A stretch of DNA of 64,000 nucleotides from Betaproteobacteria bacterium HGW-Betaproteobacteria-11 (GTDB lineage: Bacteria; Pseudomonadota; Gammaproteobacteria; Burkholderiales; Rhodocyclaceae), in NCBI GenBank assembly GCA_002842395.1, contig PHCV01000001.1, positions 248,001 to 312,000 of the forward strand. Direction: 5' to 3'. Below the pieces are notes generated by a model that did not search any database, was not told the DNA's origin, and saw only the letters and a program-made list of their open reading frames with translations. Position 1 is the stretch's first letter. Each line of letters starts with the position of its first letter. Position numbers and translations under genes: made by a program. Shown here one piece after another: positions 6,125-54,410 of this stretch.

Positions 6125-7522
6125 ATGGCCGAAATCCTCAAACGCCAGAAAGCCCTCGCGGTGAATCCGCTCAAGGCCAGCCAGCCCATTGGCGCGGCGC
6201 TGGCTTTCCTCGGCCTGAAGAACAGCATCCCCATGCTGCACGGCTCGCAGGGCTGCACGGCTTTCGGCAAGGTGTTCTTCGTGCGCCATTTCCGCGAGCC
6301 GATCCCGCTGCAAACCACGGCCATGGATCAGGTGACGACCGTGATGAGCGCCGACGAGAACGTGATCGAAGGGCTCCGGGTGATTTGCGAGAAGAACCGG
6401 CCGGAGGTGATCGGCCTGCCCACCACCGGGCTTTCGGAAACCCAGGGCGTCGATATCAAACGGCTGGTGCGGGAGTTCCGCGAACGCTATCCGCAGTTCG
6501 CCGCGACGGCCGTGGTGCCGGTGAGCACGCCGGATTTTGCGGGCTGTCTCGAATCGGGCTATGCGTTGGCGCTGGAAGCGATCATCGACGTGATGGTCGA
6601 AAAGTCGGCGCTGGTGGGACGCCGAAAAAAGCAGGTGAATGTGCTCTGTGCCTCGATGCTGACCCCCGGCGATACCGAGGCGATCAAGGAATGGATCGAA
6701 GCCTTCGGCCTGCGTCCGGTGCTGCTGCCCGACATCGGCGATTCGCTTGACGGCCATCTGGTCGAGGCCGAAACCACGCCGCTGACCCTGGGCGGCACGC
6801 CGAAGAGCGAGATTGCGAGCATGGGCGAGTCGGTGGCGACGCTGGTTATCGGCCGCTCGCTGCACAAGGCGGCCGATCTGTTGCGCGAGCGTACCGGCGT
6901 GCCGGATTGGCGCTTCGACCATCTGCTCGGCCTCGATGCGTGCGATGCGTTCACCCGGGCGCTGGCGGAGATTTCCGGCCAGCCGGTGCCGGCGAGGATC
7001 GACCGGCAGCGGGCGCAACTGCAGGACGCGATGGTGGACACCCACTTCATGACCGGCTTCCTGCGCGTCGGCCTCGCCGCCGATCCCGACCTGCTGCTGG
7101 CGCTCGGCCAGTTTCTGGCCAGCGTCGGCGCCGAAATCGTCGCCGCGGTGGCCCCGACGCGAGCCGAGGTGCTGGCCGAAATGCCTGCTGAATCGGTGCG
7201 CATCGGCGATCTGGAGGATCTCGAGCGCGGCGCGCTGGCGCACCGTGCCCAGTTGATCGTCTCCAATTCCCATGCCGCGGCAACCGCCGAGCGTCTGCAC
7301 ATCCCCCTGCTGCGTGCGGGTTTTCCACAGTACGACTGGGTCGGCGGCTACACACGTTGCTGGGTCGGTTATCGCGGTGCGCGCCAGGCCCTGTTCGATA
7401 TCGCCAATCTTTTTCTGGGGAATCCTCATGAAATCCCTGCCTACCGATCCATCTACCGCGCCGCCACCGAATGCGATCCGGCAAGCCGGCCGGCGACTGG
7501 CGCTGGCCTGGTCGGCCACTAG
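6125..7522 (+). CDS. nifN: Nitrogenase cofactor scaffold subunit NifN
   Basis: With ATG 6125 the product is 465 residues, the normal NifN length. It shares the NifK/NifN fold. [18 protein letters not shown] at residues 39-56 places Cys44 at the position of the Azotobacter vinelandii NifN cluster ligand, and [12 protein letters not shown] and [11 protein letters not shown] lie in the C-terminal domain. NifN pairs with NifE to mature the FeMo-cofactor precursor (NifB-co to VK-cluster). Unusually, no nifE precedes it. The gene is first in its operon, directly after a NifA site and sigma-54 promoter, with VapBC genes upstream. An upstream in-frame ATG at 6071 lies inside the promoter and is rejected as start. 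Confidence 0.93.
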
Positions 7523-12199: not shown

Positions 12200-12366
12200 C
12201 TCACTTGGCATCGTGTCGAATAGCGAGCGGCTTTGCACTTCCTGCGGTCGCAGCGAGCCGCTCAGGAACCCCCCCCCGCGAGGGGGGCGAAGGGGGGCGG
12301 GAGTTCAAGAACGGGCTGACTTTCATGAGGCGGGAAACATCACCCCGCCTCATGAAAGTCAGCGCC
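12200..12366. repeat. Dispersed G-tract/hairpin repeat, copy 1 (3' end of fdhA)
   Basis: A GC-rich module (CTTTGCACTTCCTGCGG onward from about 12232, then alternating C and G tracts) is followed by a perfect hairpin. The 20-bp arms are 12315-12334 and 12344-12363, with a 9-base loop AAACATCAC. A close copy lies at 40.7-40.9 kb, with relatives at 51.6 and 54.3 kb. The hairpin overlaps the last codons of fdhA and its loop carries the fdhA stop codon. It likely forms a stable 3' structure on the fdhA mRNA. The preceding stretch 12106-12199 holds nothing I recognise. Confidence 0.8.
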
Positions 12367-40539: not shown

Positions 40540-40865
40540 GTGAAAGCACGCGCTTGGCATCGCGTCGACTATCGAGGGAAACACCGAATAAGTCGTCATG
40601 CCCGCGCAGGCGGGCATCCAGTGCGTTGATGCTCATGGATTCCCGCTTCGCCCGCCGCGAAGCGGAGTCCCGGGCGTGTCGAGACCGCGGGAATGACGAA
40701 ACCGGGCTTGTTCAGCGGTTCCCGAGCGGCTTTGCACTTCCTGCGGTCGCAGCGAGCCGCTCAGGAACCCCCCGTGAGGGGGCGAAGGGGGGCGGGAGTT
40801 CAAGAACGGGCTGGCTTTCATGCTGCGGGGTGATGTTTCCCGCAGCATGAAAGCCAGCATGACCG
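40540..40865. repeat. Composite repeat region, copy 2, with nested MITE-like element
   Basis: GGCATCGCGTCGACTATCGAG (40557 onward, cf. 12210) and the G-tract module from about 40728 repeat the unit found at 12.2-12.4 kb. Inserted between these parts is a separate inverted-repeat element at 40594-40699 (ends CGTCATGCCCGCG and CGCGGGAATGACG). The terminal hairpin has perfect 20-bp arms (40810-40829, 40839-40858) and loop GTGATGTTT, which is the reverse complement of the copy 1 loop. It sits at the 3' end of proA. No gene is present. Confidence 0.8.
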
Positions 40866-47828: not shown

Positions 47829-50141
47829 ATGAATCACCTGCTTGACAAACTCAATGCGCCGCAACGCGCGGCTGTCACTCTGCCCGCCGAACATGCCCTG
47901 ATCCTGGCCGGTGCCGGCTCGGGCAAGACCCGCGTGCTGACCACGCGCATTGCCTGGCTGCTGGCTAGCGGCCAGGTCGGCCCGGCGGGCATTCTCGCCG
48001 TGACCTTCACCAACAAGGCGGCCAAGGAGATGCAGGCGCGGCTGGCGGCGATGCTGCCGATCAATCTCCGGGGCATGTGGATCGGCACCTTTCATGGCCT
48101 GTGCAATCGTTTCCTGCGCACCCATCACCGCGAGGCCGGCCTGCCGCCGCTGTTCCAGATTCTCGACGCCGCCGACCAGCTCTCGGCGGTCAAGCGGCTG
48201 CTCAAGGGCCTGAACGTCGACGATGAAAAATTTCCGCCGCGCGAGCTTTGCCACTTCATCAACGCACAGAAGGAACAGGGCTTGCGCGCCACGGCGGTCG
48301 AGGCCCGGGACGGCTGGGCGCGGCGCCGGGTCGAGCTCTACGCGGCCTATGAGGCGCAATGCCAGCGCGAAGGCGTGGTCGATTTTGCCGAACTGTTGCT
48401 CCGCTGTTACGAAGTGCTCGAACGCAACGAGCCGCTGCGGCGGCATTACCAGGAGCGCTTCCGCCATATTCTCGTGGATGAGTTCCAGGACACCAACAGA
48501 CTGCAATACCAGTGGTTGAAGCTGCTCGCCGGCTACGCGGAACGGAGGCCGGACGCCGGGCCGTCCCAAGCCCGGCCGTCACGTGGCGAAGCCGCAAGCC
48601 GCCCGGACGGCCCTACGGAGTCGCCCGTGACAGACGAGCGTAGCGAGCCGGAAGTCTCCCCGCCCGCGAGGGCGGGGCTGGGGGTGGGCGGGTGTTTATT
48701 CTGCGTCGGAGACGATGACCAGAGCATTTATGCCTTCCGCGGCGCCGATGTCGGCAACATGCGCGACTTCGAACGCGAGTTCAAGGTCGGGCACCTGATC
48801 CGCCTCGAGCAGAACTACCGCTCGCACGGCAATATCCTCGATGCCGCCAATGCGATCATCCGCAACAACCCGCAACGCCTGGGCAAGAATCTGTGGACCG
48901 AGGCCGGCAGCGGGGAACCGCTCCGGGTCTTCGCGGCGTACAGCGAGAATGACGAAGCGCGCTGGGTCGTGGAAGAGGTCAGGGCGCTCTGCCGCGAGGG
49001 CCATGCGCGCAGCCAGATCGCCCTGCTCTATCGCAGCAACGCCCAGTCGCGGGCGCTCGAACATGCCCTGTTCAACGCCGGCATCACCTACCGGGTCTAT
49101 GGCGGCCTGCGCTTTTTCGAGCGCACCGAGATCAAGCATGCGCTGGCCTATCTGCGCCTGATCGCCAACCCGCACGACGACACCGCCTTTGCCCGGGTGG
49201 TCAATTTCCCGACCCGCGGGATCGGTGCGCGCAGCCTCGAAGCCCTGCAGGATGCGGCGCGCGCGCAGGCCGGCAGCCTGTATGCGGCGATTCCCGCGGT
49301 GAGCGGCAAGGGCGGCGCAGCGCTTGCCGCTTTCGTCGCCCTGCTCGAACATTTGCGTGAAGCGGCGCAGCTGCCGCTGCCCGAGCTGGTCGAGCATGTG
49401 CTCGAACATTCCGGTCTGCGCGCGCATTACCGCAACGACAAGGAAGGCGCCGATCGCCTCGCCAACCTCGACGAACTGGTCAATGCCGCCGCCAGTTTCA
49501 TCGCCGAGGAAGGCGCCGTGAGCGAGGAAGGCGAACTCGCCGCGGATCTTGCCAGTTTCCTGGCCCATGCCGCGCTCGAAGCGGGCGAACACCAGGCCGG
49601 CGAGGGCGACGACGCCCTGCAACTGATGACCGTGCATGCGGCCAAGGGCCTCGAATTCGACGTGGTCTTCATCAGCGGGCTGGAAGAGGGGCTGTTTCCG
49701 CACGAGAACAGCGTGACGGAGGACAAGGGGCTGGAAGAAGAGCGGCGGCTGATGTACGTCGCCGTCACCCGCGCCCGCCAGCGGCTTTACCTCAGCTCGG
49801 CGCAGAGCCGCATGCTGCACGGGCAGACCCGCTACAGCCTGCCCTCGCGTTTCATCGAGGAGATTCCGCCCGCGCTGCTCAAGTGGCTGACGCCGCGAAC
49901 GGGCGGCGGGTTTGCCGGCGATCCATTCGCCGTGCCGCCAGCGCCGACTTTTTCCAAGGGCCATGCGCCGCATGCGGACAGTCCCTGGCGAATCGGGCAG
50001 AGCGTGTGTCATGCCAAGTTCGGCCCTGGCGTGATCGTCGGCGCCGAAGGGCGGGGCAGCGATGCCCGCGTCGAAGTGAACTTCGCCGCGGCCGGAACCA
50101 AGTGGCTGGCGCTTTCGGTGGCGAAGCTGGAAGCGGCCTAG
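47829..50141 (+). CDS. uvrD: UvrD/Rep-type superfamily I DNA helicase
   Basis: A 770-residue SF1 helicase starting at ATG 47829. Walker A GAGSGKT is at residues 28-34, motif II DEFQDT at 217-222, motif III GDDDQSIYAFRGA near 294-306, motif V QLMTVHAAKGLEFD and motif VI VAVTRARQRLYL. It unwinds DNA in repair and replication restart. Residues ~237-288, between motifs II and III, are a Pro/Gly/Arg/Glu-rich insertion encoded by a repeat element also found at 51.56-51.70 kb, kept in frame. Near the C-terminus PAPTFSK is encoded by the dispersed element at 49937-49953. It converges on the phosphohexomutase gene with a 4-base overlap. Confidence 0.94.
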   Translation: MNHLLDKLNAPQRAAVTLPAEHALILAGAGSGKTRVLTTRIAWLLASGQVGPAGILAVTFTNKAAKEMQARLAAMLPINLRGMWIGTFHGLCNRFLRTHHREAGLPPLFQILDAADQLSAVKRLLKGLNVDDEKFPPRELCHFINAQKEQGLRATAVEARDGWARRRVELYAAYEAQCQREGVVDFAELLLRCYEVLERNEPLRRHYQERFRHILVDEFQDTNRLQYQWLKLLAGYAERRPDAGPSQARPSRGEAASRPDGPTESPVTDERSEPEVSPPARAGLGVGGCLFCVGDDDQSIYAFRGADVGNMRDFEREFKVGHLIRLEQNYRSHGNILDAANAIIRNNPQRLGKNLWTEAGSGEPLRVFAAYSENDEARWVVEEVRALCREGHARSQIALLYRSNAQSRALEHALFNAGITYRVYGGLRFFERTEIKHALAYLRLIANPHDDTAFARVVNFPTRGIGARSLEALQDAARAQAGSLYAAIPAVSGKGGAALAAFVALLEHLREAAQLPLPELVEHVLEHSGLRAHYRNDKEGADRLANLDELVNAAASFIAEEGAVSEEGELAADLASFLAHAALEAGEHQAGEGDDALQLMTVHAAKGLEFDVVFISGLEEGLFPHENSVTEDKGLEEERRLMYVAVTRARQRLYLSSAQSRMLHGQTRYSLPSRFIEEIPPALLKWLTPRTGGGFAGDPFAVPPAPTFSKGHAPHADSPWRIGQSVCHAKFGPGVIVGAEGRGSDARVEVNFAAAGTKWLALSVAKLEAA
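48540..48692. repeat. In-frame copy of the dispersed GC-rich repeat inside uvrD
   Basis: Matches 51560-51702 over shared blocks: GCCGGGCCG, CCCAAGC, GGCGAAGCCGCAA, CCCGTGA, GAGCGTAGCGAGCC and the following C/G tracts ending GGGCGGGTGTTT. It replaces a short loop between helicase motifs II and III without breaking the reading frame. Confidence 0.8.
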
Positions 50142-51559: not shown

Positions 51560-51740
51560 GCAGCGCCCGCGCCGGGCCGCCCCAAGCGGGCGCGGCACGC
51601 GGCGAAGCCGCAAACGGTACAAAATTTGTTCGGAGCACCCCGTGATATCGAGCGTAGCGAGCCATATCGAATCCCCCGCGAGGGGGGCGAAGGGGGGCGG
51701 GTGTTTTCCTGCTGCGGGGTGATGTTTCCCGCATCATGAA
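51560..51740. repeat. Dispersed G-tract/hairpin repeat, copy 3 (3' end of yheT)
   Basis: Contains the block shared with uvrD (51564-51702), then TGCTGCGGG-GTGATGTTT-CCCGCATCATGAA. This hairpin has a shorter stem than copies 1 and 2. The yheT stop codon (51734-51736) lies inside the TTCATGA part of the arm. No gene is present between algC and yheT. Confidence 0.75.
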
Positions 51741-54221: not shown

Positions 54222-54284
54222 ATTGGCATCCTCACGCTGCGGCCAGGGAGGCACGCCTTAGCGTGAAATACATCGGGGCGCGCA

Positions 54285-54410
54285 CCGGGTCATTTCGAGC
54301 GCAGCGAGCAAACTTCGCCCCCCGCCCCGGGGCGGGGCAGGGGGTGGGGGGCAAGATAAACACCGCCAACTTTCATGATCGGGGGCGTAGCCAACGCATC
54401 ATGAAAGTTA
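54285..54410. repeat. Dispersed G-tract/hairpin repeat, copy 4 (3' end of zf-CHCC gene)
   Basis: GAGCGCAGCGAGC, then C and G tracts, GATAAACACC and a hairpin AACTTTCATGAT (54368-54379) against ATCATGAAAGTT (54398-54409). The TAA stop of the zinc-finger gene is in the right arm. The spacer between waaF and this gene holds nothing else. Confidence 0.7.

Follow-up and report, generated by a model that had tools for sequence, protein, structure and literature searches.

The uvrD gene described here carries, in frame, a copy of a palindromic element of about 150 nt in the loop that separates helicase motif II from motif III. The explanation that we consider probable is that a dispersed element was inserted into a tolerant loop of UvrD and that this loop has been filled repeatedly, by the element and by other repeats. 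The gene lies in a stretch of 64,000 nt, called the window throughout, and the genome of the window is labelled G000.

An in-frame insert between helicase motifs II and III

47829..50141, + strand: uvrD, 770 amino acids, with the element in frame (the open reading frame listing begins at an upstream TTG; the ATG is at 47829)
48543..48692, + strand: in-frame copy of the palindromic element, 150 nt, 50 codons, residues 239-288
51563..51706, + strand: copy of the element outside uvrD, taken as intergenic

The protein of the window contains the Pfam domains UvrD-helicase, UvrD_C, and PcrA_UvrD_tudor. PF00580 scored 269.5 bits and PF13361 scored 271.4 bits, both passing their curated cut-offs (23 and 25.6), and the uvrD equivalog TIGR01075 (NCBIfam) matched in two stretches with 962.1 bits, below its curated cut-off of 1144.45 bits. 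The best Foldseek matches were E. coli UvrD structures (45-46% identical), and named relatives of this UvrD were mostly labelled Rhodocyclaceae or Rhodocyclales, so that the family referred to below is taken to be Rhodocyclaceae. The protein resembles E. coli UvrD (3lfu and 2is1) in its helicase domains, motifs, and C-terminal tudor-like domain; unlike E. coli UvrD, it has 50 extra residues after motif II, and its residues 236 and 288 align to 239 and 241. Its helicase motifs are all intact, motif II being DEFQDTN (last residue 223) and motif III GDDDQS (first residue 294). Judging from this conservation, the helicase with the insert presumably still works.

The insert occupies residues 239-288 and thus lies between motifs II and III, as an earlier note on this DNA had claimed; the coordinates given in that note (48540-48692) differ by no more than a codon from those of the element core (48543-48692). 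Compared with the usual 20-residue form, this loop has exactly 50 additional codons. The proposed match of several DNA blocks to about 51.56-51.70 kb was borne out and covers nearly the whole element, beyond the blocks that were named. By blastn within the window, 48554-48697 matched 51570-51706 with 71.5% identity over 144 bp (E = 2e-11). The local alignment score was 69, which none of 2000 dinucleotide shuffles reached (mean, 21.7; maximum, 42), and the match survived both proper alignment and the shuffle control.

The insert is a copy of a dispersed hairpin element

48544-48547, + strand: GGAG foot of the uvrD copy
48547..48577, + strand: first hairpin of the uvrD copy (arms 48547-48554 and 48570-48577), the stem of which covaries in 66 non-uvrD copies
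48583..48595, + strand: second small hairpin of the uvrD copy, GTGGCGAAGCCGC
48658..48677, + strand: third, C-rich/G-rich palindrome of the uvrD copy, CCCCGCCCGCGAGGGCGGGG

An alignment of 66 copies outside uvrD and 7 uvrD copies showed a recurring unit of about 150 nt. The unit starts with a GYAG-like foot and a first hairpin, whose arms vary yet pair and whose loop is CGCCGGGCCGYCCCAAG. The second small hairpin (GCGGCGAAGCCGC or GCGCCGGAGGCGC) and a variable stretch make up the middle, and the unit ends with CCCCGTRAYA, CGAGCGCAGCGAGC, and a C-rich/G-rich palindrome closing with GGGCGGG. The foot was GYAG in 42 of the 66 non-uvrD copies (30 GCAG and 12 GTAG); the other feet were ACAG (6), ATAG (4), GGAG (4), and others or gapped (10). 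In the element alignment, pairing extends to the final G of the foot. Over 17 predicted pairs in the 66 copies, 96.0% of cells pair, compared with 77.7% when partners were shuffled (sd, 0.7; maximum, 79.3) and 38-55% when the pairing was slid. The outer stem consists of 8 column pairs, each of which was paired in 59 to 66 copies of 64 to 66. In a set of six uvrD copies, 96 of 102 cells pair. Frame 0 was open in 56 of the 66 non-uvrD copies, most of which had been retrieved by translated search in frame 0; five copies from DNA searches (three from G000 and two from G027) were all open in frame 0, several of them in other frames too.

Further copies and associated repeats lie elsewhere in the window.

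12224..12305, + strand: copy of the 3' module (GCAGCGAGCC and the C/G palindrome)
40723..40800, + strand: copy of the 3' module
about 54282..54351, + strand: further partial copy of the 3' module
51705..51740, + strand: palindrome 3' of the 51.56-kb copy, also found at 40810-40858 and 12315-12363 and absent beside the uvrD copy

The palindromes at these three places are near-palindromes of 36-49 nt of the TTTCATGCTGCGGGGTGATGTTTCCCGCAGCATGAAA type, located directly 3' of element modules outside uvrD. The mechanical open reading frame of the phosphomannomutase-like gene (named by eye) that adjoins the copy at 51563..51706 enters that copy only from TTG 51622.

A second short repeat, AAAGTCGGCGCTGGCGAGACGGCG, occurs in 8 copies within 3 mismatches in the window, with 0 expected; the 24-mer is located at 6601, 12550, 34202, 36828, 41290, 43693, 49928, and 60269. 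Its 12-base core was found 11 times within 1 mismatch (0.5 expected), the additional places being 14693, 51101, and 53931. The copy at 49928-49951 lies inside the same uvrD, in the C-terminal part, and at least one copy of this repeat is thus intragenic.

The insert as a query against its whole own genome found 12 places at E <= 1, itself included. Under a threshold of E <= 0.01, the 51.56-kb copy found 44 places, most of them only the 3' part, and the 40.72-kb copy found 46; both counts include the query itself and palindrome matches on both strands. Rfam at gathering thresholds reported only a tRNA in the window and no family for the element. In the family, a translated profile of three uvrD inserts matched 70 of 395 genomes at E <= 0.01, and the insert itself matched 7 of 61 relatives at E <= 0.001. 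Among 300 genomes of the order, 17 matched at E <= 1e-4, and the 12 of these outside the family had short matches only (<=57 bases, first hairpin type). Long matches in these 300 genomes were confined to the family, which is weak evidence for a lack of full copies elsewhere because just two candidates were scored per genome.

The own genome was also scanned for copies inside genes, at 67 loci, many of them overlapping, around matches returned by three element searches. Five loci had long frames through the match (at least 80 residues before and at least 60 after): uvrD, L002 and L098 (one place), L007, and L049. The frames other than uvrD look by eye like chance frames in GC-rich DNA, and uvrD was the only clear in-gene case among the own-genome loci examined. 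In three other genomes that share a genus label (G100, G280, and G383; loci L238, L241, and L243), a protein that looks by eye like an ABC-transporter permease has the 3' module read in frame close to its N-terminus. Tandem copies of the element were seen at L287 (G096, contig C286) and L234/L293 (G118, contig C132), and a single frame of 268 residues in G096 spans three adjoining element matches.

Mobility driven by a RAYT transposase was considered as well. PF01797 (Y1_Tnp) had no match in G027 or G111, both of which carry several element copies, and the one match in G000 had no element in its locus. Of six Y1 loci fetched, one had a partial element match of 28 nt. No association of the element with a transposase was found in G000, G027, G111, or the six Y1 loci, and this candidate was rejected.

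The same loop is filled in other UvrD proteins

We measured the linker, defined as the stretch between DEFQDT(N/S) and GD(D)DQS, across relatives. It was readable in 107 of 110 loci and in 26 of 27 later loci (133 of 137 in total; all except L033, L126, L136, and L252), which represent 125 distinct proteins, since eight loci are duplicates of others. The first UvrD tree had 79 rows fetched by UvrD similarity, a ranking that puts full-length insert-bearing matches first, and for the later set 30 genomes, picked for a translated element match anywhere, were queried, of which 27 yielded the 27 loci. Because of this sampling, the frequency of carriers is not a population estimate. Most linkers (119 of 133) were 19-28 residues long and 14 were longer, and the nearest relatives of carriers have no insert; orthologues thus do not hold the segment as a common ancient domain. 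In the 44-row clade with G000, G027, G238, and G114, 31 of 37 insert-free linkers had exactly 20 residues and the other six had 22 or 24.

A full element fills the loop in G000 (70 residues), G027 (69), G012 (70), G238 (70), and G341 (70), and the 107-residue linker of G358 has two element-derived stretches. Two species of one genus label, G114 (42) and G030 (36), have a shortened element, each scoring higher against the 66 copies than any of 200 shuffles. Eight loops in total therefore hold this element whole, doubled, or shortened. The linkers of G018 and G307 (45 each) contain a second repeat type, the palindromic part of which has tens of copies in G018, and those of G007 (42) and G078 (67) contain a third, with 3 and 5 further places in their own genomes at E <= 0.01. 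The loops of G018 and G078 are unrelated to the element, as 195 and 157 of 200 shuffles, respectively, reached their scores. G032 and L174 (49 each) have a common segment, the element score of which was reached by 22 of 200 shuffles. A 49-residue linker with the common sequence PDHTxNWDFDPxAE was seen in two relatives, L017 and L174; this insert is specific to their lineage and, by its score, is not the element.

Insertions of at least 25 residues in the 125 UvrDs were all located in the motif II-III loop, and the longest elsewhere was 22 residues, indicating that this loop is the tolerant spot of UvrD. A 20-residue insertion elsewhere, near GLFPHENAVS, was seen in L273 (G188).

The earlier note had described an essential-type repair gene that tolerated a repeat by keeping frame and so added a new protein segment. 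The frame is kept and the motifs are intact. The case is not unique: UvrDs of other genera carry the element in this loop, and still others carry different repeats there. The 50 extra codons are there, and the description as a protein segment is amended in that no sign of selection as protein was seen, in a comparison of five copies with small power.

Coding constraint and predicted structure of the insert

The pN/pS of the insert over the five full uvrD copies (G358 and G114 left out) was 1.11, and that of the controls (423 pairs of ungapped non-uvrD copies) was 1.01. Of 2000 random sets of five non-uvrD copies, 1756 were at or below the uvrD value. On these figures the insert evolves like non-coding copies, as far as five sequences of small power can tell. 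An AlphaFold model of UvrD (50 sequences) had a mean pLDDT of 83.2 and a pTM of 0.62, and the domain arrangement in it is unsure because of the latter value. Residues 242-283 had pLDDT below 50, and the helix 224-233 and strand 289-295 on either side were formed; in this model the 50 extra residues are probably disordered.

History of the uvrD copies

The UvrD tree (101 rows, loop left out) was made by a quick method with SH-aLRT support only and included seven carriers, G030 not being counted. Each carrier stood beside insert-free relatives. The carrier state took 7 changes on this tree (mean of shuffled labels, 6.9), and well-supported branches force 7. A single clade of carriers was 924 log units worse and was rejected (p-AU = 5.5e-30), and a single gain would entail 28 losses (27 if G030 is counted among the carriers). 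On the element tree of 72 elements, from which G114 was left out as truncated and to which G030 did not belong, the six uvrD copies clustered beyond chance, with 3 changes against a shuffled mean of 5.8 (0 of 500 as low). One origin of the uvrD copies was neither shown nor rejected (p-AU = 0.303), although a single change occurred in 0% of 200 bootstrap trees. The copies of G012, G341, and G358 were placed together (100/96), G358 on a long branch, and the uvrD copy of G027 grouped with non-uvrD copies (8-row set, 99/98). The element copies of G000 and G027 are 78% identical.

Synonymous differences among G000, G027, and G012 were 0.22-0.36 in the insert compared with 0.53-0.57 in the rest of the gene, and nonsynonymous differences were 0.19-0.33 compared with 0.15-0.17. 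By the lower synonymous difference, either the inserts postdate the split of the genes, or they were exchanged, or their hairpins hold them; hairpin constraint could depress the synonymous figure.

In most carriers, the junction residues are Y/F/H-x-E before the insert and Cys after it, unlike in insert-free sisters. As exceptions, G027 has QIG and S, G030 fits in part, and Cys is also found in some insert-free relatives. The codons ATC TTC GCT GTG after the insert are common to G012 and G341, unlike in the sisters of G341. Likewise, G007 and G078 have common left-flank codons (CTT CGC xxx CTT GCA GGC GGT), unlike the sisters of G007, which suggests exchange of that third-repeat insert. TGTTT after GGGCGGG also occurs in some copies outside uvrD, and part of the right uvrD junction may thus belong to the element. 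All full carriers have the insert in one orientation and one frame; a profile in that frame was the means of finding G238, G341, and G358, which does not apply to G000, G027, and G012. Near the loop (distances of 10-45 codons), carriers showed no raised third-position identity (permutation p, 0.27-0.68), and identity in windows around the loop was no higher between G000 and G027 than between G000 and insert-free relatives. Long-tract recombination carrying the insert left no signal by either measure and was rejected; exchange of little more than the insert is still compatible with them.

The explanation that we prefer begins with a dispersed hairpin element of about 150 nt, present in many Rhodocyclaceae genomes, that would have inserted into the motif II-III loop of uvrD. 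The gene would have stayed open because this loop accepts extra length and the copy adds 50 codons free of stops in the frame used, and the product would be a UvrD lengthened by 50 residues that are probably disordered. This loop would have been filled repeatedly in Rhodocyclaceae, by this element and at least two other repeats, because insertion is tolerated there and perhaps also because the loop DNA is a preferred target. We infer that most occurrences are separate insertions, and we infer likewise how the element moves. Several results speak against repeated separate insertion: the clustering of the uvrD copies on the element tree, where a single origin was not rejected, the likeness of most carriers at the junction and of G012 and G341 in the codons after the insert, the single orientation and frame of full carriers, the closeness of the G000 and G027 copies, and the lack of a transposase linked to the element.

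Alternatively, the UvrD loop may have captured the element in one or a few events, with the filled loop then moving from lineage to lineage through very short homologous exchanges; we regard this as possible, if unlikely. The common junction residues and codons of most carriers, the clustering on the element tree, where one origin was not rejected, the left flanks of G007 and G078, and an insert pS below that of the gene all fit such exchanges. Against them, neither third-position identity near the loop nor the identity of G000 and G027 around it is raised, the G027 copy sits among non-uvrD copies, and the exchanged piece would need to be barely longer than the insert.

It is improbable, in our judgment, that the insert is kept for a function, either as a tuned flexible loop of UvrD or as hairpins in uvrD mRNA acting on translation or stability. 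The kept hairpin pairing in the six uvrD copies and the convergence of several lineages and three repeat types on the loop agree with a function, but the pairing may be mere inheritance from source copies, no purifying selection on amino acids was seen in the five copies compared, and most relatives examined are without the insert.

One ancient insertion in the family ancestor, lost by most descendants, would explain why distant lineages agree in site, orientation, and frame, and the differently shortened forms in G114 and G030, of one genus label, indicate that an insert can last and decay. We give this reading very little weight, because it takes 28 losses against 7 gains, the exactly 20-residue linkers that prevail among insert-free members of the 44-row clade look like the original state, and the insert pS is lower than that of the gene. 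The scatter of carriers on the UvrD tree and the synonymous differences likewise disfavor an ancient shared domain, and of the three histories, separate insertions, short exchanges, and a single old insertion passed down, we consider the last the least likely. Finally, the Pro/Gly/Arg-rich composition of the segment might suggest that it is no repeat at all but a domain peculiar to UvrD or a chance match of GC-rich, low-complexity sequence, which can be dismissed given the shuffle control and the many genomes with full-length copies outside uvrD whose stems covary.

Comparison with known palindromic repeats

In the parts of a study of GTAG/CGTC-tagged REPs drawn on here (BMC Genomics 2013, PMC3733652), these palindromic repeats are described as mostly intergenic, with some in genes and translated. 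They measure 20-40 bp, alone or in dimers or groups, with a stem of mostly 6-9 bp and a GTAG or degenerate GYAG/GYRG tetranucleotide at its base, and they flank a RAYT (Y1_Tnp) transposase gene, although not every REP group has such a partner (PMC3733652). Many of the REP-bearing genes named there are repair genes, a UvrD/REP helicase among them; recB of two Xanthomonas species has different REPs at about the same site, whereas in all other cases genes of a given category carry their REPs at differing positions (PMC3733652). In-frame palindromic repeats in repair genes, including a UvrD/Rep helicase, are therefore already known from that source (PMC3733652). Compared with REPs as portrayed in those parts, our element is likewise palindromic with a GTAG-like foot (GYAG in 42 of 66), lies in frame in a repair gene, and has an outer stem of 8 pairs, within the 6-9 bp range. 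Unlike them, it is a composite of about 150 nt in which only the first hairpin is REP-sized, no RAYT gene flanked by it was found in the genomes and Y1 loci examined, and many lineages have the filling in one and the same UvrD loop, in contrast to the differing sites of REPs other than those in recB. The element contains a REP-like hairpin, and we do not call the whole a REP.

The original work on Rickettsia palindromic elements (RPE) is reportedly that of Ogata and others in 2000 and 2002. In the sections of a later review used here, RPEs, the classic case of in-frame palindromes, are about 150 bp, have an open frame, and occur in frame within unrelated housekeeping genes (PMC10969869). By that description, and not by sequence, our element is alike in being about 150 nt, palindromic, and in frame in a housekeeping-type gene. 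It differs from RPEs, which that account places in Rickettsia with many genes hit, in that uvrD is its one clear in-gene case among the loci of its own genome that were examined. A literature search with little coverage of subscription journals turned up no further account of this element or of a hot spot in the UvrD loop. As far as this search reaches, the element family and its recurrence at one UvrD loop are new.

A bolder reading, which we hold to be rather doubtful, would make this loop of UvrD a genuine hot spot. At least three kinds of palindromic elements would then repeatedly land at, or be exchanged into, one codon position, by site preference or since a longer loop tunes UvrD and hence the mutation or repeat-expansion rate of the cell. 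The system offers a countable natural experiment on how often selfish repeats turn into protein and on whether they do so only where the fold tolerates it. One loop of a well-studied helicase has several fillings by different repeats, close insert-free relatives serve as controls, and assays can compare forms of the enzyme that have and lack the segment.
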